This document shows, in pieces, positions 8,317 to 57,701 of a DNA stretch of 64,000 bases. Source of the DNA: Siphonodentalium dalli (Eukaryota > Mollusca > Scaphopoda > Gadilida > Siphonodentaliidae); the NCBI GenBank assembly GCA_032622095.1, contig CP136064.1:260131863-260195862 (forward strand). The letters run 5' to 3'. Below the pieces are notes generated by a model. The model ran no database searches, was not told the origin of the DNA, and saw only the letters and a program-made list of their open reading frames with translations. The position numbers and the translations under genes were made by a program. Position 1 is the stretch's first letter; every line of letters begins with the position of its first letter.

Positions 8317-11189
8317 ATGATGTATTCATCTAGTATACAGGACCGTCAGATCAATGCAACTTACGATCTGAATGTACATAGTGACAACGTCAATGGGGAA
8401 GGGTTCAGGTGTCCGTTTTGAATGGACTCACCGCAAATCTGCTTTTCAAAATACAGAATATAATCAGCATTTATTATGAGCGATGGTTTAATATGTGTAC
8501 AATGCACCGGCTCTCAATGTTTTCTACTTTAGCCAATAGATCCGCCAAGCAAACCCAACTATATATACGCCGAATGCAAGCATTTTCAAAATTGTTCCAT
8601 ACTAAGCTATTGCTCGGTTATTCTTTTAAGTGCACATCCATCCGTAACTGGAACATCTGACACACCCCCAGACTTAAAACAATCTATTACGTATTATAAT
8701 TATATATTAATATGTGTATATAATCCTATACATGGCGGGACGTAGGCAAACACGAAATTCGCACATATAAACTCACCTATCACCGACTCTTGTGTATATA
8801 TGCCGAAATCTCATGAAATAATCTTTGTGTACTTCATATTACTTCCTCTAAATTCGATAAACGGACATCTCTTTTTAATAATATGTCCAGTTTTCCGACT
8901 TGACGCATATATGGAAAACAGGCTTGTCAACTCTCCATATATAAACAATATCACACACACGGACATCCATGGTCTCATGAAGTAATCCAATCTTGCACAA
9001 ATGTCCAGACAATCTACAATATGACCTCTGTATGGTGAAATCTTATGGAATAATCCAATTTTGCACAAATACCCAGACAAACGAGTGTATCGCGGATGTT
9101 AGCTGACTTGTGCATGCACATGAGACGACTGCATAATGATTAGTCACGTTCATAATTACACCCATGAATGTGCTCAATCCACTAGTATGTATGCACAAGT
9201 CTACTACATCTGTTTGTTCAGCATACATACAACAATTCTCATACCACGAAGCACAATTTGCCATCACCATTATGAAATGAAACCGACCAGCACGCAACCA
9301 GTAGATTGGACGTATAATCACGACTTTTTCAGGTCAAACTCACACGAGACAATCATTTCCATGTCAAGCGGTCAGTCCGACTGGGTAATTATGTTAAACC
9401 AACAACGGCGTTGGTAGACCGAGGTTATGTGACGCGAATTCATGCCCATATGCGATAACATTTGGCATTCACTGAAGGGCGTATATATGCGCGCACTTTC
9501 ATACAGGTATATATACTCAACCAGCATCTATGCATATATTGTCTTATTATTTGAGTGTGCATTCGTTTTGTTTATCCTGGTCATATCGGTATGGTAGCCA
9601 TTGTATACATATATTATTCATCGACAGTATTTATACCCCCATAACATGATATGTATGGCACATACTTATACCATCACACCGTCCGTCTGTCCGTTCCGTA
9701 CTGGCTATGAACTGTTTAATTCCATTTGAGATATCTCAACACTTTCTGACCGTTTCATAGCAAACATAACCGCGTGTTGGTTTACATAGAATCCGATATT
9801 TATACATGCATGCGCATGCTCCACTTTTCTTAAATGTCCATCTAGATAATCATGTATATACCTTGTGTACAATGGTAAACAAACGGAATATACCTTAAAT
9901 CCGCACCCATTCACCAATTGAAGCGATCACACATTACTCATGTACCGGTATATAATCGTGCTTGTGTTTATCCAAACCGTACACATTGGCAGGTTGGGGC
10001 GGCAACACACATATCGCGGTATTAAGGATTGCCTTATAACCGACCGGTATGGTCGCCCTGATCTCTGATAACAAAAGGGAGCACACACGGATCGTGTACC
10101 GGTATATAGAGGCATATAATGTGTGTTCATCATCAAATTGCATGTGCACATGCATTGCTATGAAGGACTGGCATGTCACCACAAATTCAGACTCGTCTTC
10201 TCCAATGGGTAGCATCTATAATTTTCGAAACGCCGTTTCTCAGATATTTCAAATCACGCTGCTCACCTCTTGTGAAAACATAATCGTGCGTATCAAAAAC
10301 TACATTTAGTTATCTGGGAACACACACGTATATGTATGTAGGTATGTGTTTTGTGCATGCGTATGTGCATATATAGGTATGTGTGTGTTTATGTAATTAT
10401 ATGTAAGTGTAGTGGTGTGTCTTCCTGTTAGTCTTATGAATCGATCGCACTTAAATCTAACTGTGTGTCCACATAATTGCAGCGCTAAGACTCTGGTCAC
10501 TAGCATGAATGATTCAAACTGCCCAGGCACCGTAGTTAAAAATAGTTAATTATGTATTATATAATAATTAAATTATTATTATGCTTATATTTATAATTGT
10601 ATCCCTTGCTGAGTTTTGTAAATAATTTGTAGCATATGTATATGATACGCTCTCTCAAGTATGCAGGCAATCCTATTGCATTCCATAATTCCACACACCC
10701 ATCTACTCCTGACTTACCTCGTCGATCCACGTTCCCCTTAAAACCGTTCACGACATGAATATCTCTATCCCTCACTTTAGAAACATAACTCCTATAGTCA
10801 TTTCGGCTGCATATACATTTTCGTGATGAAGAGCTCCGAGCTCAAAACACACCCTAAGATTATCAAACTTAAGATGAACCCCTGTTTGGTCGACTCAAAA
10901 AACCCATCGGCCTGCACAACCACGATTGGTATACATTCTATTGCCACTCACTATTGCTATCTCATACTCTCATTCACTATACTCAACTGCCCTTCTGTTC
11001 TACTCTGTTCTCTTTCTCCTACCTACTCACACCTACCTGGCAAACAGACTGGGTTGAAAACAAATTTAAAACACACAACTGATATGTATACATTTACATG
11101 TATTACCAGAGTATGCTCTATTAATATGTTTGTTACTTTGCACCGAGGATGCCCAAAACAGAACTGCTCTCAGGATTTTGATATGACTT
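8317..11189 (+). other. Long ORF1-ORF2 spacer without recognised gene
   Basis: Nearly 2.9 kb separates the two LINE frames. It is AT-rich with GT-rich stretches (10306-10420) and only small open frames. One of these, a 126-codon frame at 10823-11203, overlaps the ORF2 start by 14 nt but has no domain I recognise. I found no terminal repeats or target duplication marking a nested insertion. Confidence 0.5.
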
Positions 11190-14100
11190 TTGATAATGGG
11201 TGACATAATGTTACATAGGGCAAGAATCGGTGCATTTCACAATCTTGCTGTCAGGCTGTCCGGGAGGGGGCGTCTCTGTGTGAAACAATCAAAAACATGC
11301 TTGTTTTATATCATGTTACGCTTACGTGGACTGGATCTTATAACTGCCTTAACATTGACACTGTTGGTTTTCATTTTCTTCCCGATGGAACAATTCTGCG
11401 CTCTCAAACATATCTTGGCAGGCAAGAAACTATCTAATTCTCCAAATTCCGATGATAAAAAGTTGAACACTAAATTTGCGATGTCACACACAACTGTATT
11501 CCTCTTCACATGTGTGACATTTCTAACAGTATTAGCGGTATCTTTAGCAAAGGCTCTTTTGATCCTGGCAGGAGACGTGGAGACTAACCCAGGCCCCTCA
11601 ACCGAACAACACAATCACTCGGTACTTGTACTGAATACACAGAGTATCAGAAATAAAGTAGATATACTTACAGCCGAAACATCAAGTGGGGAATACGACA
11701 TATGTCTATTAACCGAATCATGGCTCGATCATTCTATCCCGGATTCAGAAATCCATCTTCCTGGCTACCATGATCCTGCCCGCAAAGACAGGATAGATGG
11801 CAGAACAGGAGGGGGTGTGTGTATTTACGTTCGTGACACTATACCATTCAAAATATGCGATGAACTTGACAGTGACGAAGTAGAAAATATCTGGATAGAG
11901 GTTACAATTAACACAAAACGTTGTCTTGTAGGATGTTTTTATCGCCCTCACAACTCCCCCGCAAGCCTGTGGACAAAAATTAATGATAACATTTCTCTTG
12001 CGCGCGATAGCGACCTGGATGTCATAATAGGTGGAGATTTCAATGAAAACTATGTACGCAACGGTAATGGTAAAATAAACGGCATATGTAGCGAACGAGG
12101 TCTGACCCAACTGGTCACTGATAAAACGCATTTTACTGAAAATTCCTCATCCATTCTCGACTTGCTCATGACTAGCAACCCTGACCTTGTTGATTCCCCT
12201 TGTGTTCTTGGCAACATATTCGACAACACAATTAGGTATCACTGTCCGGTCGTTGCTCAGATAAAACTTTTGAAAAATAAATCGGCTACAACTCTCACTA
12301 GACGTATCTGGAATTATAATCTGGCTGACTTCGATACCATGAACGAAGACTTCTTGAGCTGGAACTATGATGATAATATACCATTTGAACTTTCAGCTCA
12401 TGCAGATAACTTGACTGCAACAATTCAAAAGGTATGCAGTGACAATATCCCCAATAAGATAGTTCTTATCCGGAAAGGTAGTCCCCAATGGCTTACGTGT
12501 AATGTACGGAAACTGATGAGGCAACGAAATCGATTACATAAGATAGCTAAACGGAAAAACACACCACAAACATGGGCAAACTTCAGATCTAAACGTAATG
12601 AAACTACATCGGCTATTAGAAAAAGCAAACGTGATTATGACACCAAGAATGAGAACACATTGAATAGCCCATCACATGACCAGTCTTCCTGGTGGAAAAC
12701 CCTCCAAAAAATAGTATTTGCTACCAGTGATAGATCAATACCCCCCTTGAACACCAACGGCGACTTCCTGATCTCACCAACTGAAAAAGCAAATGCTTTC
12801 AATTCGTATTTTTGTAAAATTTCCTCAGTTGATGACATCGGGAAACGCCTACCAGTCCTTGAACCGGATAACTCCATATCCACATTAAGCGATATAAAAA
12901 TCACAGCCCCTGACATTTACAAAGCGTTAAAAAGTCTTAAAATATCTAAGTCAAGTGGGCCCGACGGAATAAGTCCGAGAGTTTTGAAAAGTTGTGCCTC
13001 CTCGCTCTGTGAACCTCTTGAATTCTATTTTAGAACATTTACCGAAAACAATTACTACCCACACCAGTGGAAGCGTTCACATGTTACACCTATATTTAAG
13101 AGTGGTGATCCCGGTCTTATATCAAATTACCGACCAATTTCTCTACTAAGCTGCGTCTCAAAGGTCTATGAAAAATGTATTTATAAATATCTATGGGAAT
13201 TTCTTGATGAAAACAAACTCCTATCATTTTATCAAGCTGGTTTCATGCGCAACGATTCAACAGTTTTTCAACTTACCGAAATATATGACAATATATGTCG
13301 ATCATTAGACGACGGAAAAGAGGTCCGGTGTATATTCTGTGACATAAGTAAAGCATTCGATAAAGTCTGGCACCGTGGCCTCTTGAACAAACTGACAAAA
13401 ATTGGTATAAGAGGAAACTTGTATAACTTGATGAAATCGTATCTAGAATGTAGACAACAACAGGTTGTCATAGACGGCACACGTTCGGAACTACAAGATG
13501 TAACAGCAGGTGTGCCGCAAGGCTCGGTATTAGGCCCACTTCTGTTTTTAATTTATATTAATGATATAACCGAAAATATACGGTGCAACATTCGTCTATT
13601 TGCTGATGACACTTCTCTATTTCTTACTATCGAAGACCCCACCATGGCCGCAAAACTAATCAACGATGACCTCGAAACTCTCATGTGTTGGGCATCAGAA
13701 TGGCTTGTAAAATTCAATCCCCTGAAAACGGAATCTCTCTTAATCTCCAGGAAAGAAACACCAGTATATCATCCACATTTGACCATGGGAACCGCGACAA
13801 TTGTTGAGGTTGACAGCCATAAACATCTGGGACTTACTTTCGACAAAATGGGCTCTTGGGGTATCCACATCAGATCTATGCTTGACAAAGCATGGAGTCG
13901 AGTAAATCTAGTACGTAAACACAGATACAAGCTAAGCAGAGTAACGCTTGAAAAAATACATTATACATTTATCCGACCAATACTGGAATATGCCTCCCCT
14001 GTTTGGGATAACTGCCCTGATTATCTTAGTGATGACATTGAAAAGGTTCAGTATGAAATGGCCCGAATAGTAACAGGTGCAACCATCAGTACGAGTAACG

Positions 14101-14753
14101 CGTGCCTTTTGTCAGAGACTGGCTGGGAACTCCTCTCTTCACGCCGTAGAAAACACAAGCTATGCCAATTTTTTAAAATGATACGAGGAACTGCTCCATC
14201 AATTTTAAGAAATTATGTACGACCAATTCAGGCAAATAATTCCAGATATAACTTAAGATTTGAACATATAAGACTACCCTCGAATATTAATTATGACTAT
14301 TATATGGATTCTTTCTTACCATCTGCAATTACCGAATGGAACAAACTGTCAGAAACTACAAAGAGCAGCAGTACAATCGAAGACTTCAAAAAGGAACTGA
14401 ACAGTGACAATATACGTCCACCTGCCTATTTTTATCATAGTAAATGTCGTAAATCTCATATCCTCCATACCCGGTTAAGATTGAACTGCAGCCACCTAAG
14501 TGGTGACCTGACAGATAACCATGTAAAAATTTCCCCCTTCTGTCTATGTGGGGAATTTGAGACAACTTACCACTATCTCTTTGAATGTACATTTTATCAA
14601 GAGCCCAGAAGAGAACTATATGACTCCCTACCAAATGTTGCCTTATCTGAGAATACACTAATGCGGGGGTCAAGAGAGCTTAGTCTTCGCGAAAACAAAC
14701 AAATATTTAATGCAGTACAGACATATATTATGAGAACAAAAAGATTTCCATGA
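11190..14753 (+). CDS. LINE ORF2: 2A-like leader, APE endonuclease, reverse transcriptase
   Basis: 1187 residues. The N-terminal ~127 residues carry two hydrophobic segments (~45-65 and ~101-122), followed by the 2A-like motif GDVETNPGP (128-136). The endonuclease spans ~145-355: NTQS with N149, TESW with E176, GGDFN with D283 and N285, and YHCPV with H351. The reverse transcriptase follows: NYRPISLL (~646), FCDISKAFD with D718, GVPQGSVLGP (~774), FADD with D806/D807, and FIRPILEYASPVW. The C-terminus has CLCG...TYHYLFEC, a zinc-knuckle-like motif seen in related LINEs. The protein nicks target DNA and reverse-transcribes the element RNA there. All catalytic residues are present and the frame is open. 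The true start could be Met1 or Met98 (ATG at 11481). Confidence 0.93.
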   Translation: MIMGDIMLHRARIGAFHNLAVRLSGRGRLCVKQSKTCLFYIMLRLRGLDLITALTLTLLVFIFFPMEQFCALKHILAGKKLSNSPNSDDKKLNTKFAMSHTTVFLFTCVTFLTVLAVSLAKALLILAGDVETNPGPSTEQHNHSVLVLNTQSIRNKVDILTAETSSGEYDICLLTESWLDHSIPDSEIHLPGYHDPARKDRIDGRTGGGVCIYVRDTIPFKICDELDSDEVENIWIEVTINTKRCLVGCFYRPHNSPASLWTKINDNISLARDSDLDVIIGGDFNENYVRNGNGKINGICSERGLTQLVTDKTHFTENSSSILDLLMTSNPDLVDSPCVLGNIFDNTIRYHCPVVAQIKLLKNKSATTLTRRIWNYNLADFDTMNEDFLSWNYDDNIPFELSAHADNLTATIQKVCSDNIPNKIVLIRKGSPQWLTCNVRKLMRQRNRLHKIAKRKNTPQTWANFRSKRNETTSAIRKSKRDYDTKNENTLNSPSHDQSSWWKTLQKIVFATSDRSIPPLNTNGDFLISPTEKANAFNSYFCKISSVDDIGKRLPVLEPDNSISTLSDIKITAPDIYKALKSLKISKSSGPDGISPRVLKSCASSLCEPLEFYFRTFTENNYYPHQWKRSHVTPIFKSGDPGLISNYRPISLLSCVSKVYEKCIYKYLWEFLDENKLLSFYQAGFMRNDSTVFQLTEIYDNICRSLDDGKEVRCIFCDISKAFDKVWHRGLLNKLTKIGIRGNLYNLMKSYLECRQQQVVIDGTRSELQDVTAGVPQGSVLGPLLFLIYINDITENIRCNIRLFADDTSLFLTIEDPTMAAKLINDDLETLMCWASEWLVKFNPLKTESLLISRKETPVYHPHLTMGTATIVEVDSHKHLGLTFDKMGSWGIHIRSMLDKAWSRVNLVRKHRYKLSRVTLEKIHYTFIRPILEYASPVWDNCPDYLSDDIEKVQYEMARIVTGATISTSNACLLSETGWELLSSRRRKHKLCQFFKMIRGTAPSILRNYVRPIQANNSRYNLRFEHIRLPSNINYDYYMDSFLPSAITEWNKLSETTKSSSTIEDFKKELNSDNIRPPAYFYHSKCRKSHILHTRLRLNCSHLSGDLTDNHVKISPFCLCGEFETTYHYLFECTFYQEPRRELYDSLPNVALSENTLMRGSRELSLRENKQIFNAVQTYIMRTKRFP
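11571..11597 (+). other. 2A-like ribosome-skipping motif in ORF2
   Basis: The codons read GDVETNPGP and match the 2A consensus D-(V/I)-E-x-N-P-G-P. In known 2A peptides the final Gly-Pro bond is not formed, so the upstream leader would be released and ORF2 proper would begin with Pro136. The hydrophobic run just before it resembles signal-like 2A leaders reported in some non-LTR elements. Activity here is inferred from motif identity. Confidence 0.85.
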
Positions 14754-16817: not shown

Positions 16818-17811
16818 CTGGGAGATTGCCCGTCAAAAATGACGGGTAAATAAATGTCCTTTGTTACTTTCTGGTGTTCGCGTGCATGATCAAATTATTA
16901 TTTATATTAGAAATGGAATGGCTAATAGTATTCTTCTCTTGCCACGGCGGCGTGGGAACACTTTATTTCACAAAGAAATGTATCCCCCCCCCCCCCCCCC
17001 CCCCCGCTTCAACGTGTATGCACGAATGGGCGTAGCTAGTTTGCTCTAAGGCGGATTCGTCAGCTGATAGCAACGGCATAATTGATACGGCGAGCCCAGT
17101 AGATGGGTGGAAATCTAATACGAATGGACGCTTCACACACACCAACACCTATAAGCTTCAGACTCTTGATGACGAACATTATGAATAATTAATTTTCATT
17201 TCCCTTATACACTGCACGGGAAGTTCGTGTGCGACATATGGACATACTATGCAAGTATTGTCTAAGTGGATTAATGCCAATAGTTTAGTACGAAAGGTTC
17301 TGGTCCTCTGGACGCCTACCAATTCTTCAGTTCGAGGGTATTCGGGTCACAACATTAATATTTAAATAGCACCCATTTCCAACGATGATTGAACGTTCGA
17401 TCTATTCATCTATGTACAACCCATGGACTTCCACGACAAAATCAACACCCTTACTTATTCACACTCAACCTGATGACTAATTAATTTTGCGCCCTTTTCC
17501 AATGTTATGGCAGAACGCATGGAAGTTTCGTCTGTACAATAGCAAAGCAAGTGTGGGTTTGTGTGCGACGTCATATGACGTCATTTCGACAAACGTCATA
17601 AGAAATAGTGTCTACTTGAATGTAGATACGGCGTTTTGGGTTTCGATCTCGTATTTTCTTTGACAATCGGCGTGAAAGTTGGTGAGTCATCTTCTACGAC
17701 ACAATGATGTAGGCAGTGGCTACGTTGGACGCGTGGTTGAAAAGTTATAAACGCGCCAAAAGCGTGACTGAGTTATACACGCACACAGACGACGGGTTTT
17801 ATAAATATAGA
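16818..17811 (-). mobile_element. Helitron family R, copy a
   Basis: Read on the minus strand it starts TCTATATTTATAAAACCCG at 17811 and ends in a hairpin CCCGTC...GACGGG followed by CAATCTCCCAG near 16818. That is the Helitron layout (5' TC, subterminal hairpin, CTRR-like end), although CTRR has decayed to CCAG. It abuts copy b head to tail. It has a 23-base C run at 16984-17006 and no Rep/helicase coding, so it is non-autonomous. Confidence 0.7.
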
Positions 17812-18244
17812 CTAGGGGATTGCACGTCAAAATGACGGGTATATAAATGTTCTTCGTTACTTTCTGGCCTCCGCGGTCATGAACACAATATCATTTCTAT
17901 ATTAGTAATGCTTCTCTTTCACCGGAGGCGCGTGGGAACACTTTATTGAACTGAAACTGTATCTTGTACCCCCACCCTACCCCATATATATGCATGCACA
18001 TTTGGAACGCAACAAAATCAACATATTACTTTATTACTGTATTTACTAACCGAAACAGACTCCATTTGGGGGCGTTTATTCATCGGTGGAGGTGCATGCG
18101 GCCCCTTTGTGTGCCATGAGCCTATGATGGCTAGGCCCTAGGGAACACTATATTTCACTGACAAACTGTATTTTCTACCACCACGCACATATATGCATGC
18201 ACATATGGAAAGCAACAAAATAAACTTATATTAATTTATTACTA

Positions 18245-18822
18245 TCTCATATATATTGTGAAGACCTCTGTTTGTCTGTCTGTCTGTCTGTATGTCTGTA
18301 TGTCTGTCTGTATGTCATTTATACAAATCTACGATTCTCGACCGATCGGGACGAAACTTGGTACGTGTGTGTAGTTTGACCAGGCGGTGGACGTTGTCGT
18401 ATTGGCGAGTCCGTGCGACGCCCGCTTCGCGCATGCGCAGACGAGATCTCGGAAACGGGTGGAGCTATCGACTTGAAATTTGGTATGTGAATGTATCTTG
18501 CCCCGGATACGAATTTTATCGGGTCGCCGAGCCCATGCGACGCCAGCTTCGCGCATGCGCAGACGAGATATCGGAAACGGGTGGAGCTATCGACTTGAAA
18601 TTTGGTATGTGAATGTATCTTGCCCCGGATACGAATTTTATCGGGTCGCCGAGCCCGTGCGACGCCAGCTTCGCGCATGCGCAGACGAGATCTCGGAAAC
18701 GGGTGGAGCTATCGACTTGAAATTTGGTTTTTGAATAGCCCGGACAACGTCGGGCTGGGCAGAGCTATCGACTTGAAATTTGGTTTTTGAATAGCCCGGA
18801 CAACGTCGGGCTCATCGGATAG
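18245..18822 (+). mobile_element. Helitron unit H1
   Basis: First unit. Three core repeats, then a duplicated 3' hairpin (18736-18756 and 18792-18812). The end CTRR is mutated to ATAG, after which H2 starts at once. Confidence 0.8.
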
Positions 18823-19620
18823 TCTCATATATATTTTGAAGATCTCTGTCTGTTTGTCTGTTAGTCTGTCTGTCATTTATACAAATCTACGATTCTCGAC
18901 CGATCGGGACGAAACTTGGTACGTGTGTGTAGTTTGACCAGGCGGTCGACGTTGTCGTATTGGCGAGCCCGTGCGGTGCCCGATTCGCGCATGCGCAGAC
19001 CAGATCTCGGAAACGGGTGGAGCTATCGACTTGAAATTTGGTACGTGTGTGTAGTTTGACCAGGCGGTCGTCGTTGTCGTATTGGCGAGCCCGTGCTACG
19101 CCCGTGCAGCGCATGCGCAGACGAGATCTCGGAAACGGGTGGAGCTATCGACTTGAAATTTGGTGTGTGAATGTATCTTGCCCCGGATACAAAATTTATC
19201 GGGTCGCCGAGCCCGTGCGGTGCAAGCTTCGCGCATGCGCAGACCAGATCTCGGAAACGGGTGGAGCTATCGACTTGAAATTTGCTATGTGAATGTATCT
19301 TGCCCCGGATACGAATTTTATCGGGTCGCCGAGCCCGTGCGACGCCAGCTTCGCGCATGCACAGACGAGATCTCGGAAACGGGTGGAGCTATCGACTTGA
19401 AATTTGCTATGTGAATGTATCTTGCCCCGGATACGAATTTTATCGGGTCGCCGAGCCCATGCGACGCCAGCTTCGCGCATGCGCAGACCATGTCTCGGAA
19501 ACGGGTGCGGCTACCGGGTACCATTTTTTCTTATTGAAACGCGTGGAGCTAAACATTTAAAAAATATATTTAAAAATGTCATGTTTCGGACAAGCCGCCG
19601 GTGGCGGGCTAACCTGCTAG
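18823..19620 (+). mobile_element. Helitron unit H2, chimeric 3' end
   Basis: Typical family-H 5' end and five core repeats. At ~19500 it switches to a different 3' end: ATGTCATGTTTCGGACAAG, a hairpin AGCCGCC...GGCGGGCT, AACCTG and CTAG. That end matches the next unit, H', rather than other H units. Confidence 0.8.
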
Positions 19621-20739
19621 TCTATACTATATATTTTGAGACTTCGTATATATGTATGTATGTACTTCATAGAATCCAAAACGCGTGTACAGATTGAGCT
19701 CAAACTTCCTATGTAAGTGTCAAATCCCACCGACACGACCGTGGTCGCAGTTTAGAGAAGCTCAGAGCACCCGTTCTCCAATCTCAAATCACCGCAAAGG
19801 CACGGCGTGGGTTAATCAAGTGATTATTTAATGAGCGTTTGTTTTTGACGCATCTCTATAAAGAGCGTCTGTTTGCCATTCAACGTTATTTGCATCTGCA
19901 GTGAGATATACGGAACATACATTAAATTTAAAAAACATTTGTTTCTGACCAACCCTGCGAGCACGGATGGCGCGCTTTGTTTTTACAGTATATAGTTATA
20001 TACCGAAATCATCCCAGATAATCACGAATATAGCATCAGATTTCTCCCCAGATATACCGTTATAAAGCTACTGGAATCTGCCAATCTACGGGAAATTCCG
20101 TGGGAATGCCGATTGAGCTCAAACTTGCTACCCACGGGAAGTGTCATATATATGAGTGTGTCTTTTATAGACTCGAACCGATTGAGCTCAAACTTGCTAA
20201 ATAAGAAAATAGCCCCCAAGCCGTAAATATCAACAACAACGATATTACTAAATACACGTTTTTGGCAATGTGAGAGTTTTCGGGGAGCCGTGATGCCAAC
20301 AACAACGACCCGAAGCCCTGAATGCCAACAACAGATTCAATGCAGTGTTATCTATTATGCAGAGAGATTTCACGACATTACGACGGGTACGGCAGACTCA
20401 AAATATTATGCAGACAGATTTCCCGACGGGAAGCGTTTGTTTTAAATTCAATGCAATGTTATCGTAGAGAGATTTCACGAAACAAAGAATGCGTTGTCTG
20501 TCGTTCCTAGGAAGGGGGGATTTCTACGGGTAAATTTTTCCGCCAGAAACCAAAAAATTAATTAAAACAATTTACAATTTAATTAAAACAATTTAAAATT
20601 AAAAAAAATTAACAATACAAAAACAATTCAGAAACAAAATATATTAAATTTTAAAAACATTAAATTCATATTCAAAAATGTCATGTTTCTGAAACAAAGC
20701 CATGGGACGAATGCCGCCAGTGGCCGGCTAACCTGCTAG
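19621..20739 (+). mobile_element. Helitron unit H' (different family)
   Basis: Begins TCTATACTATATATTTTGAG and ends ...GCCGCCAGTGGCCGGCTAAC, CTG, CTAG. It lacks the 122-bp core and instead has repeats of GATTGAGCTCAAACTTGCTA. It lies head to tail between H2 and H3. Confidence 0.75.
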
Positions 20740-21119
20740 TCTCATATATATTTTGAAGACCTCTGTCTGTATGTTTGTTTGTCTGTCTGTCATTAATACA
20801 AATCTACGATTCTCGACCGATCGGGACGAAACTTGGTACGTGTGTGTAGTTTGACCAGGCGGTCGTCGTTGTCGTATTGGCGAGCCCGGGCGACGCCCGT
20901 GCAGCGCATGCGCAGACGAGATCTCGGAAACGGGTGGAGCTATCGACTTGAAATTTTCTATGTGAATGTATCTTGCCCCGGACACGAATTTTATCGGGTC
21001 GCCGAGCCCGTGCGATGCAAGCTTCGCGCATGCGCAGACCAGATCTCGGAAACGGGTGGAGCTATCGACTTGAAATTTGGTTTTTGAATAGCCCGGACAA
21101 CGTCGGGCTCATCGGCTAG
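20740..21119 (+). mobile_element. Helitron unit H3
   Basis: 380 bp with two core-type segments and a canonical hairpin plus CTAG end. Confidence 0.85.
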
Positions 21120-21843
21120 TCTCATATATTTTGAAGACCTCTGTCTGTTTGTCTGTCTGTCTGTCCTTAATACAAATCTACGATTCTCGACCGATCGGGA
21201 CGAAACTTGGTACGTGTGTGTAGTTTGACCAGGCGTGGGCGTTGTCGTATTGGCGAGCCCGTGCGACGCCCGTGCAGCGCATGCGCAGACGAGATCTCGG
21301 AAACGGGTGGAACTATCGACTTGAAATTTGGTATGTGAATGTATCTTGCCCCGAGTACGAATTTTATCGGGTAGCCGAGCCCGTGCGACGCCAGCTTCGC
21401 GCATGCGCAGACGAGATCTCGTAAACGGGTGGAGCTATCGAGTTGAAATTTGCTATGTGAATGTATCTTGCCCCGGATACGAATTTTATCGGGTCGCCGA
21501 GCCCGTGCGATGCCAGCTTCGCGCATGCGCAGACGAGATCTCGGAAACGGGTGGAGCTATCGACTTCTCGGAAACGGGTGGAGCTATCGACTCGAAATTT
21601 GGTATGTGAATGTATCTTGCCCCGAGTACGAATTTTATCGGGTCGCCGAGCCCGTGCGACGCCAACTTCGCGCATGCGCAGACGAGATCTCGATCTTGCC
21701 CCGGATACGAATTTTATCTGGTCGCCGAGCCCGTGCGACGCCAGCTTCGCGCATGCGCAGACCAGATATCGGAAACGGGTGGAATTATCGACTTGGAAAT
21801 TTGTTTTTTTAATAGCCCGGACAACGTCGGGCTCATCGGCTAG
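21120..21843 (+). mobile_element. Helitron unit H4
   Basis: 724 bp with five core-type segments, two with internal rearrangements (a local 29-bp duplication near 21565 and a deletion near 21690). Canonical 3' end. Confidence 0.85.
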
Positions 21844-22361
21844 TCTCATATATATTTTGAAGACCTCTGTCTGTATGTATGTTTGTTTGTTTGTTTGTCT
21901 GTCTGTCTGTCATTTATACAAATCTACGATTCTCGACCGATCGGGACGAAACTTGGTACGTGTGTGTAGTTTGACCAGGCGGTGAACGTTGTCGTATTGG
22001 CGAGCCCGTGCGGCGCCCGCTTCGCGCATGCGCAGACGAGATCTAGGAAACGGGTGGAGCTATCGACTTGAAATTTGCTATGTGAATGTATCTTGCCCCG
22101 GATACGAATTTTATTGGGTCGCCGAGCCCGTGCGATACCAGCTTCGCGCATGCGCAGACGAGATCTCGGAAACGGGTGGAGCTATCGACTTGAAATTTGC
22201 TATGTGAATGTATCTTGCCCCGGATACGAATTTTATCGGGTCGCCGAGCCCGTGCGACGCCAGCTTCGCGCATGCGCAGACCAGATCTCGGACACGGGTA
22301 GAGCTATCGACTTGAAATTTTGTTTTTGAATAGCCCGGACAACGTCGGGCTCATCGGCTAG
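21844..22361 (+). mobile_element. Helitron unit H5
   Basis: 518 bp with three core-type segments and a canonical hairpin plus CTAG end. Confidence 0.85.
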
Positions 22362-22700
22362 TCTCATATATATTTTGAAGACCTCTGTCTGTATGTATGT
22401 ATGTCTGTATGTCATTGATACAAATCTACGATTCTCGACCGATCGGGACGAAACTTGGTACGTGTCTGTAGTTTGACCAGGCGGTGGACGTTGTCGTATT
22501 GGCGAGCCCGTGCGACGCCAGCTTCGCGCATGCGCAGACGAGATCTCGATCTTGCCCCGGATACGAATTTTATCTGGTCGCCGAGCCCGTGCGACGCCAG
22601 CTTCGCGCATGCGCAGACCAGATATCGGAAACGGGTGGAATTATCGACTTGGAAATTTGTTTTTTTTAATAGCCCGGACAACGTCGGGCTCATCGGCTAG
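22362..22700 (+). mobile_element. Helitron unit H6
   Basis: 339 bp, the shortest unit. It shares with H4 the same deletion junction (GAGATCTCGATCTTGCC) and the variant 3' region, so H4 and H6 are related by copying within the array. Confidence 0.85.
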
Positions 22701-23201
22701 TCTCATATATATTTTGAAGACCTCTGTCTGTATGTATGTATGTCTGTATGTCATTGATACAAATCTACGATTCTCGACCGATCGGGACGAAACTTGGTAC
22801 GTGTCTGTAGTTTGACCAGGCGGTGGACGTTGTCGTATTGGCGAGCCCGTGCGGCGCCCCCTTCGCGCATGCGCAGACGAGATCTCGGAAACGGGTGGAG
22901 CTATCGACTTGAAATTTGGTATGTGAATGTATCTTGCCCCGGATACGAATTTTATCGGGTCGCCGAGCACGTGCGACGCCAGCTTCGCGCATGCGCAGAC
23001 GAGATCTCGGAAACGGGTGGAGCTATCGACTTGAAATTTGGTATGTGAATGTATCTTGCCCCGAATATGAATTTTATCGGGTCGCCGAGCCCGTGCGACG
23101 ACAGCTTCGCGCATGCGCAGACCAGATCTCGGAAACGGGTAGAGCTATCGACTTGAAATTTGGATTTGAATAGCCCGGACAACGTCGGCCTCATCGGCTA
23201 G
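22701..23201 (+). mobile_element. Helitron unit H7
   Basis: 501 bp with three core-type segments. The hairpin has one mismatch (GTCGGCC). Its 5' segment is nearly identical to that of H6. Confidence 0.85.
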
Positions 23202-23829
23202 TCTCATATATATTTTGAAGACCTCTGTTTGTCTGTATGTTTGTCTGTATGTCTGTGTCATTTATACAAACTACGATTCTCGACCGATCGGGACGAAACT
23301 TGGTACGTGTGTGTAGTTTGACCAGTCGGTCGTCGTCGTCGTATTGGCGAGCAAGTGCGGCGCCCACTTCGCGCATGCGCAGACGAGATCTCGGAAACGG
23401 GTGGAGCTATCGACTTGAAATTTGCTATGTGAATGTATCTTGCCCCGTTACGAATTTTATCGGGTCGCCGAGCCCGTGCGACGCCAGCTTCGCACATGCG
23501 CAGACGAGATCTCGGAAACGATTGGAGCTATCGACTTGAAATTTGGTATGTGAATGTATCTTGCCCCGGATATGAATTTTATCGGGTCACCGAGCCCGTG
23601 CGACGCCAGCTTCGCGCATGCGCAGACGAGATATCGGAAACGGGTGGAGCTATCGACTTGAAATTTGCTATGTGAATGTATCTTGCCCCGGATACGATTT
23701 TTATCGGGTCGCCGAGCCCGTGCGACGCAAGCTTCGCACATGCGCAGACCAGATCTCGGAAACGGGTGGAGCTATCGACTTGAAATTTGGTTTTTGAATA
23801 GCCCGGACAACGTCGGGCTCATCGGCTGG
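23202..23829 (+). mobile_element. Helitron unit H8
   Basis: 628 bp with four core-type segments. It ends CTGG, which still fits CTRR, next to host T at 23830. Confidence 0.85.
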
Positions 23830-24688: not shown

Positions 24689-25031
24689 AATACTATAGCA
24701 ACGCAAGTGTGGGTTTGTGTACGACGCTTCGACAACCGTCATAGGAAATAGTGTCTACTTGAGTGCAAACACGTGGCGTTTGGGGACCATGCTCGATCTC
24801 ATGTTCTCTCTGACCAATCGGCGTGAAAGATGGTGAGTCATCTTCTACGACACAATATTGCCCGTGTTCCAAATTTGGGCTATACATTGGACGCATGGTT
24901 GAAAAGTTATAAACGCGCCAAAAGCGTGACCCAGTTATACACACACAGATACACACACACACACTCACCCTCACGGGATCACACAGATACACACACACAG
25001 ACGACGGGTTATATATATATATATATATAGA

Positions 25032-26503
25032 CCAGGGGATTGCCCGTCAAAATGACGGGTATATAAATGTTCTTCGTTACATTCTAGTATCCGCGGTCAT
25101 GGGCACATTGTCATTGCTATATCAGCAATGGGTTGGTCAGGCTTCTCTTTCACCGGAGGCGCGTGGGAACAACACTTTTTTGAACTAAAACTGTATTCTG
25201 TACCCCCATCTACCCCACATATATATGCATGAACATTTGGAATGCAACACAATCAACATATATTACTTTATTACTGTATTTTCTATCTGAAACAGACTCC
25301 ATTTGGGAGCGTTTATTCAGCGGGGGGGGGGGGGTCTGCGACCCCTTTACAGTAAGCTATGAGCCTAGTTCGGGAGCACTGAAAAACTGTATTTTCTACC
25401 ACCATCCACATATATGCATGCACATATGGAATGCAACATAATCAACTTATATTATACTAGCCGATGAGCCCGACGTTGTCCGGGCTATTCAAAAACCAAA
25501 TTTCAAGTCGATAGCTCCACCCGTTTCCGAGATCTGGTCTGCGCATGCGCGAAGCTGGCGTCGCACGGACTCTGCGACCCGATAAAATTCGTATCCGGGG
25601 CAAGATACAATCACATACCAAATTTCAAGTCGATAGCTCCACCCGTTTCCGAGATCTCGTCTACGTATGCGCGAAGCTGGCGTCGCACGGGCTAGGCGAC
25701 CCGATAAAATTCGTATCCGGGGCAAGATACATTCACATACCAAATTTCAAGTCGATAGCTCCACCCGTTTCCGAGATCTCGTCTGCGCATGCGCTGCACG
25801 GGCGTCGCACGGGCTCGCCAATACGACATCGACGACCGCCTGGTCAAACTACACACACGTACCAAGTTTCGTCCCGATCGGTCGAGAATCGTAGATTTGT
25901 ATTAATGACAGACAGACAAACAGACAGACAGACAGAGGTCTTCAAAATATATATGAGATTACTTTATTACTATGATATATAACTGAAACAGAGCCTTTAT
26001 TCAGCGACGGAGTGGCTTGCAGCCCCCATGTGCGCTTCGCGCATATTACAGTTTATATTCACACGGAAGTGGCACATTAAAAGACCATTTAGCACCCATT
26101 TCCAACGATGGTATAGAACGTTCGAGTCTCGACCCTTCACACTCAACCTGATCTGACAATTAATTTATAGCGCCCATTTTCAACAACGCTTTTGGTAGAG
26201 CACATGGAAATTTCGTCAATGCAATAGCAACGCAAGTGTGGGTTTGTGTACGACGTCACAATCATGACGTCATTTCGACAAACGTCATAGGAAATAGTGT
26301 CTACTTGAGTGCAAATGTGGCGTTTGGGGACCATGCTCGATCTCATGTTCTCTGACCAATCGGCATGAAAGTTCGTGAGTCATCTTCTACGGCAGAATAT
26401 TGGCCTTGTTCGAAATTTGGGCTCCATTGGACACATGGTTGAAAAGTTATAAACGCGCCAAAAGCGTGACCGAGTTATACACACAGAGACACACACACGT
26501 TGA
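25032..26503 (-). mobile_element. Helitron family R, copy c
   Basis: The 3' end on the minus strand is the hairpin CCCGTC...GACGGG, CAATCCC and CTGG (at 25032-25035), abutting the TC of copy b. It aligns with copies a and b through AAGTGTGGGTTTGTGTACGACG and AACGCGCCAAAAGCGTGAC. Its 5' end has diverged. A TC at 26503-26502 preceded by A is the best candidate, eight bases inside an intron that starts at 26511. It carries solitary Helitron H9. Confidence 0.6.
25457..25958 (-). mobile_element. Solitary Helitron H9 (family H, inverted)
   Basis: A single full unit in reverse orientation, with TCTCATAT at 25958-25951, three core-type segments, hairpin and CTAG at 25457. In element sense the host bases are A before TC and T after CTAG. 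It sits in family R copy c about 20 bp from the equivalent position occupied by the array in copy b, but in opposite orientation, so the two insertions are independent. Confidence 0.88.
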
Positions 26504-57322: not shown

Positions 57323-57514
57323 GGTGTAATATCTATTATATATACGGGTGTAATATCTATTATATATACGGGTGTAATATCTATTATATATACGGGTGTA
57401 ATATCTATTATATATACGGGTGTAATATCTATTATATATACGGGTGTAATATCTATTATATATACGGGTGTAATATCTATTATATATACGGGTGTAATAT
57501 CTATTATATATACG
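57323..57514 (+). repeat. Minisatellite, 24-bp unit x8
   Basis: Eight perfect copies of a unit GGTGTAATATCTATTATATA-TACG. Because 24 is a multiple of three, several frames stay open across it; these are artefacts. Confidence 0.97.
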
Positions 57515-57701
57515 GGTGTAGTCAAAGTAGATGTTCATGGCATGATATACGATTTGGGCCAGGGTGTCGAGTCCAAATTTACAGATGCACCCACTCGTTC
57601 TGGTGCCAGTAAATTCCAACTTGTGGAAATACCATGAGACCTCAACCTTGGAAAGTAAAAGTCCAATTTGCGAAAAAAGTACTATTCACTAATTATACGT
57701 A

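Follow-up and report, generated by a model that had tools for sequence, protein, structure and literature searches.

Head-to-tail arrays of canonical Helitrons in the genome of Siphonodentalium dalli probably grew by serial insertion in front of resident elements

A stretch of 64,000 nucleotides (nt) from the scaphopod mollusc Siphonodentalium dalli (hereafter the window; contig CP136064.1, C4:260131863-260195862) contains, at window positions 18245-23829, nine Helitron units joined head to tail, which form a true array of canonical Helitrons. Comparison of these units with one another and with copies from the rest of the same nine-contig assembly of 2.23 Gb leads us to favour, with moderate confidence, an origin mainly by serial insertion immediately 5′ of resident Helitrons, with local processes in a secondary role. 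Termination bypass and consecutive insertion have been the competing accounts of how tandem Helitrons arise, mostly argued from a few cases, and the thousands of junctions present in this one genome let the question be settled by counting. If insertion before resident ends is the rule, it would explain how a rolling-circle transposase chooses its targets, offer a means of limiting host damage and open a route from transposon to satellite, a later stage of which is visible at C1:188.85 Mb.

Anatomy of the array

The initial annotation of this sequence had described nine units joined end to end between A and T, and a recount in the assembled sequence bears this out: all eight junctions are exact G|TC, a host A (18244) precedes the first TC and a host T (23830) follows the last end (Table 1). 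A 5′ TC terminus is present in all nine units and in a solo copy nearby (S). The 3′ CTRR terminus that had been assigned to every unit is found in S and in eight of the nine (H9 having CTGG), the exception being H1, which ends in ATAG. Both of the families previously distinguished are present, H3 being the family-B unit, but H2 is a chimera of families A and B rather than a member of either. Family-A units share a common layout, in which the 5′ end (TCTCATATATATTTTGAAGACCTCTGT) is followed by a microsatellite of the CTGT type and a leader; next come modules, whose number varies, then a 3′ hairpin and, last, CATCGGCTAG. The modules are mostly 122 nt long, with a single short form of 79 nt. The family-A hairpin, with a 6-bp stem that stops 10 nt short of the end, folds better than shuffled sequences (z -2.4 and -2.1), whereas the hairpins of family B show no such advantage (z -0.3 and +0.25). 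In H1, the 3′ hairpin tail is present twice in tandem (18701-18822). A deletion junction that had been reported as common to H4 and H6 does exist, with 43 nt absent from the 122-nt module, but the units that carry it are H5 and H7 in the present numbering; the former labels match these two if the family-B unit went unnumbered. Unit lengths in the array range from 339 to 1,119 nt, and simple satellite DNA was rejected as a description of it because no homogenised monomer of constant length is present.

The borders of S fix the family-A ends independently of the array. The two insertions occupy neighbouring copies of one host repeat, approximately 10 bp apart in homologous positions, and both are flanked by A and T, with no target duplication. 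The surrounding host DNA (approximately 17.4-26.5 kb) also consists of a degenerate repeat, whose copies align too loosely at this AT-rich insertion site to give a base-exact empty site.

Table 1. Units of the array, the solo copy and the left host flank (window positions)
Feature	Positions	Strand	Description
H1	18245-18822	+	Family A; three module cores; duplicated 3′ hairpin tail; ends in ATAG
H2	18823-19620	+	Chimera: 5′ end and five module cores of family A, 3′ end of family B
H3	19621-20739	+	Family-B unit
H4	20740-21119	+	Family A; two module cores
H5	21120-21843	+	Family A; 43-nt deletion junction common to H7
H6	21844-22361	+	Family A; three module cores
H7	22362-22700	+	Mosaic: nt 1-157 like H8, rest like the 3′ end of H5
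H8	22701-23201	+	Family A; three module cores
H9	23202-23829	+	Family A; four module cores; CTGG end, then host T
S	25457-25958	-	Solo family-A copy; borders A|TC and CTAG|T; orientation opposite to the array
Left host flank	17458-18244	+	Degenerate repeat related to 24691-25454 and partly to 26136-26490

Junctions between elements across the genome

An exact 23-mer search for the family-A 5′ end in the assembly returned 16,426 matches, preceded by G in 8,620 cases, by A in 7,593 and by C or T in 213; in other words, 52% of these ends look array-internal, 46% stand behind A and 1.3% behind neither. Reversed control patterns gave 0 matches in the same genome, and 8,620 exact junction-type ends against none for the control place the junction beyond chance. 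Other multi-unit arrays, for which the initial annotation had suggested a search, are abundant, and arrays were seen at nearly every locus inspected around clustered junctions. Among the loci fetched, which were chosen for arrays, 69 of the 74 distinct G|TC ends read CTAG|TC, and the base that comes next after an exact family-A 3′ end is T in 120 of 121 cases, with TC in 109. Recurrent C|TC 5′ ends of family A on the minus strand of C5:214365136-214377964 probably belong to a single block that was amplified locally.

Random insertion between A and T would be expected to meet a resident end in approximately 4e-5 to 2e-4 of cases, an estimate that assumes about 10% AT dinucleotides, as measured in the window. 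The observed share of junction ends, 0.52, includes copies made by duplication and hence is not a rate per insertion; even so, the gap between the two values requires either directed insertion or much local copying, and the identities of neighbouring units, given below, favour the former for most pairs. Beyond this genome, the exact family patterns had no match in the viral_contigs and genome_contigs collections, blastn of the array against phages and scans with Rfam and for tRNAs were likewise negative, and no cross-species relative was found in these searches.

A coding partner with family-A ends

The autonomous Rep/helicase partner with the same termini for which a search had been suggested was found at C1:13739545-13748219 (minus strand). 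This element begins with a family-A 5′ end, leader and modules, continues with an open frame of 1,614 amino acids (aa) containing Helitron_like_N (2.8e-56), STPR and PIF1 (2.4e-68) domains (scanned as two pieces), and closes with the family-A hairpin, carrying one substitution, and CATCGGCTAG, joined to the TC of the next element. Its 5′ end lies 11 nt after a family-B 3′ end, at A|T. A loose 3′ pattern also matched three internal CTAA places in the element, none of which is followed by T. The Rep family PF14214 has 457 candidates in the genome, 150 of which were scored, and more than 20 open frames of at least 1,600 aa occur among the matches listed. Adjoining the coding Helitron, the region C1:13.75-13.79 Mb is dense in family-A heads and in junctions between families A and C.

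Relationships among units and alternative origins

Unit identities were compared in a set of 104 family-A units, from which six loci (L001, L003, L012, L015, L019 and L027) had been excluded as duplicates of others. Loci L035-L046 were taken from the first clustered G|TC places and L002-L030 by likeness to H4, and both choices are array-enriched. H2 and H3 were unscored in the neighbour tests, and LC1, which consists of two blocks with 2.7 kb of other DNA between them, was kept apart in the neighbour counts. Median identity was 95.8% for 41 pairs of neighbouring family-A units, 95.6% for 37 non-neighbour pairs within the same arrays and 95.2% for 562 pairs from different arrays. Family-A pairs within the window array are 93.5-97.6% identical, the same level as copies across arrays. 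The solo copy S is 97.4% identical to H4, which exceeds the best value that H4 reaches within its own array (96.8%), and the closest sampled relative of H4 is a unit of locus L031 on the same chromosome (99.2%). For five of the seven scored units (H1, H4, H6, H8 and H9) the best sampled relative lies outside the array, while H5 ties and H7 has its best relative inside; because the outside pool is far larger and favours outside matches, this test is weak taken alone. Together with the level identities, however, the mostly outside best relatives argue against one recent concatemer.

These values bear most directly on failed termination, one of the two origins that the initial annotation had put forward. 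According to this explanation, read-through of a 3′ terminator, or replication of a circle, would have produced a concatemer that was inserted in one step and whose units diverged later. Such a process yields exact CTAG|TC junctions, and it has been proposed for the arrays of bat and silkworm (PMC4067079). Certain neighbours are also near-identical, as it would predict. The units of L031 stand in the order X X Y Y, with 501 of 502 positions identical between the two X copies and 971 of 973 between the two Y copies, and neighbours of differing length in L037 and L044 reach 99.5% and 99.8%. Identity of at least 99% was observed in 4 of 42 neighbour pairs and in none of the 562 between-array pairs (Fisher 2e-5, for pairs that share units and are not independent), the former becoming 4 of 60 when the 18 neighbour pairs of LC1, none of them at 99%, are added. 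Dimer insertion or local duplication contributes some of these near-identical neighbours. They are nevertheless a minority: 38 of the 42 pairs fall below 99%, with a median close to that of unrelated copies, units of families A and B stand together with an A/B chimera in the window array, and no member of the array is as close to H4 as S. A single rolling-circle concatemer was rejected for the window array because its neighbours are no more alike than outside copies, and failed termination followed by divergence is, in our view, an unlikely origin.

Alternatively, ready-made multi-unit blocks might move as one element, from a first TC to a later CTAG, whereby arrays would be copied whole. This would be expected from the bypass of ends that is known for Helitrons, and both the chimera H2 and the composites of families A and C at C1:188.85 Mb fit a start and an end on different elements. 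When H8 and H9 were used as a joint query, however, only the array itself was recovered (100%), with no other place above 95% among the 40 scored of 5,732 candidates, and 2,138 comparisons across loci, involving 67 pairs of neighbours, gave no case of an ordered pair recurring at 98%. With more than 16,000 5′ ends in the genome, this sample is a small one in which rare block moves may have been missed; considering also the varied length of the A units that stand before families B and C (see below), the movement of whole blocks seems quite unlikely.

Expansion of a short seed in the manner of a satellite, by unequal crossing-over, gene conversion or replication slippage, is a third alternative, in favour of which three observations can be cited. 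H7 is 99.4% identical to H8 over nt 1-157 and 99.4% identical to H5 over the remainder, with one mismatch in each part; this clean mosaic makes recombination or template switching inside the array secure, and the earlier claim that copying had taken place within it stands. At C1:188849000-188872999 (L047-L049), composite units of families A and C form a satellite-like run of approximately 1.19-kb repeats with higher-order repetition, in which many copies are 98-100% identical and one type is about 87% identical. At C1:31736574-31758309 (L032-L034), 25 exact family-A 5′ ends are distributed over twin blocks whose right flank is the same and recurs at a distance of 13,175 bp; unit lengths of 3338/3339, 371 and 805/806 repeat in order in these blocks. 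Most units of the window array, on the other hand, differ from one another just as much as copies taken from separate arrays do, and a seed could not provide family B or the subfamilies common to distant loci, which makes this explanation very unlikely for the array as a whole. Finally, although such repeats are difficult to assemble, a product of collapsed or mis-joined repeats is hardly credible in view of the 8,620 exact junction-type ends across the genome, the host-like A and T flanks outside the arrays and the several-percent differences among the units of one array, which help assembly.

Order of families and the proposed mechanism

Repeated insertion at CTAG|T, the other origin considered in the initial annotation, proved to be the better supported of the two, but in our reading its side was wrong, as the evidence points to insertion before the resident TC. 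Junctions in which family A precedes family B or C number 3,857 genome-wide, compared with 1,165 in the reverse order by a pattern of matched strictness and 1,081 by a stricter pattern. When only the places listed up to 63.1 Mb on C1 are counted, the numbers are 100 and 20, or 82 and 20 without one cluster. The units of family C (8 units) agree to 88.9% at the 5′ end and 93.2% at the 3′ end, and those of family A (68 units) to 94.9% and 96.6%, which is consistent with family A being younger than C; younger A elements inserting directly 5′ of older ends would give the observed polarity. The lengths of the A units that precede B or C were examined at 47 of the 65 places listed for the first 30 Mb of C1, the 18 places from the cluster at 13.75-13.79 Mb being omitted. 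Eleven of the 47 are without an exact family-A 5′ end within 3.5 kb, and 31 of the 36 measurable units are 350 to 935 nt long. Because of these varied lengths, a single travelling A-C composite was rejected as the source of the polarity.

From these patterns we infer an order of insertion, a targeting directed by nicks and a chemistry as follows. The movers would be non-autonomous canonical Helitrons, mobilised in trans by a Rep/helicase transposase that is encoded by elements sharing their ends. The transposase would nick before a resident TC, which is its normal first cut; the incoming CTAG 3′ end would then join the resident TC and the incoming TC would join the upstream base, so that the CTAG|TC joining that closes a circle would be made between two elements rather than within one. 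The outcome would be an array headed by a host A and closed by a host T, with G|TC at the internal junctions. In addition, some neighbours arise secondarily as near-identical pairs, through dimer insertion or local duplication, and recombination of units in place accounts for H7 and possibly for the chimera H2. Resident Helitron 5′ ends, with every TC that can be nicked as a target whether it stands behind a host A or behind the CTAG of another element, may even be the preferred landing site of the transposase, a tentative proposal of end-directed self-targeting that we regard as plausible but somewhat short of probable. If it is true, self-extending chains of Helitrons would fill the genome while other DNA is spared, with circle-type junctions formed between elements.

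Several points weigh against serial insertion as the main process. Strong targeting has to be assumed, given the random expectation calculated above. The polarity counts are inflated by local amplification: one cluster (C1:13.75-13.79 Mb) supplies 18 of the first 100 A-before-B/C places, and one array at C1:188.85 Mb supplies 16 of the first 100 in the reverse order (stricter pattern). The polarity argument also rests on family A being younger, and the diversity of family C could have other causes. Moreover, the order is not strict in the window, where H3 (family B) precedes H4-H9 (family A), and the near-identical neighbours in 4 of 42 pairs are unexplained by accretion. Lastly, no age gradient within family A was detected along arrays when age was taken as divergence from the consensus (the downstream unit was older in 36 pairs, younger in 40 and equal in 7; p 0.68), whereas use of the host A|TC alone would put younger units 5′. 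Insertion before any resident TC would accommodate the absent gradient, although this is a rescue made after the fact; the cleavage of CTAG|TC by the Helraiser transposase is consistent with it (PMC5876387).

Relation to previously described Helitrons

Canonical (Helitron1-type) Helitrons share with the elements described here the 5′ TC, the 3′ CTAG preceded at 10 nt by a hairpin, the A|T insertion site, and a partner that codes for Helitron_like_N and PIF1 helicase domains; what is different here is that G|TC junctions account for the majority of the exact family-A 5′ ends. In maize, Du et al. (2008) described a pair of unlike Helitrons that abut head to tail with a G/T junction; their study weighs both models, favours consecutive insertion and discusses an A|T site to which the host contributes the A and the earlier of the two elements the TC (PMC2267711). 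That case consists of two elements, compared with nine units, thousands of junctions and a measured polarity in the present genome. The tandem arrays of bat, silkworm and plant centromeres are likewise head to tail, but they have been credited to termination bypass or circles, whereas most neighbours here are not sister copies (cited in PMC4067079, PMC5148889 and PMC5876387). Unlike Helitrons adjacent to each other in bat and maize have been mentioned as well (PMC4067079), and three tandem Helitron copies in a fungus have been discussed with models of self-insertion (PMC5148889). The Helraiser transposase generates precise CTAG|TC circle junctions, and the plus strand is cleaved exactly there in vitro (PMC5876387). 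Active Helitrons with circles and an AT preference have been described in wheat (PMC13286980), and insertion of Helitrons near other Helitrons is noted in a review (PMC12477314).

Resemblances to other rolling-circle elements are limited to parts of the structure. DINE-1/HINE elements and Helentrons are similarly short and non-autonomous, with a microsatellite and central tandem repeats, but they have T-rich boundaries, whereas the elements here have a CTAG end and an A|T rather than T|T site (PMC4067079). The satellite-like repeats borne by oyster Helentrons are comparable as tandem repeats inside rolling-circle elements, represented here by the 122-nt modules, the difference being that whole elements are arrayed in S. 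dalli with the modules nested within them (PMC7492417). Tandem Helitrons and both explanations for them have thus already been published; in the open-licence literature (subscription papers were outside the search), no report was found of a genome where the majority of a family's copies lie inside arrays, and the scale and the evidence for accretion look new.

Other features of the window

Upstream of the array, an open frame of 1,188 aa (11187-14753, plus strand) contains endonuclease and reverse transcriptase domains and, near its N-terminus, the sequence GDVETNPGP, which we take to be a 2A-like motif. Two further repeats were observed: a 24-nt unit present in 8.2 copies that are 100% identical (57323-57520), and a 69-nt repeat with more than 10 copies, approximately 88-99% alike, on both strands between 26.8 and 59.8 kb.

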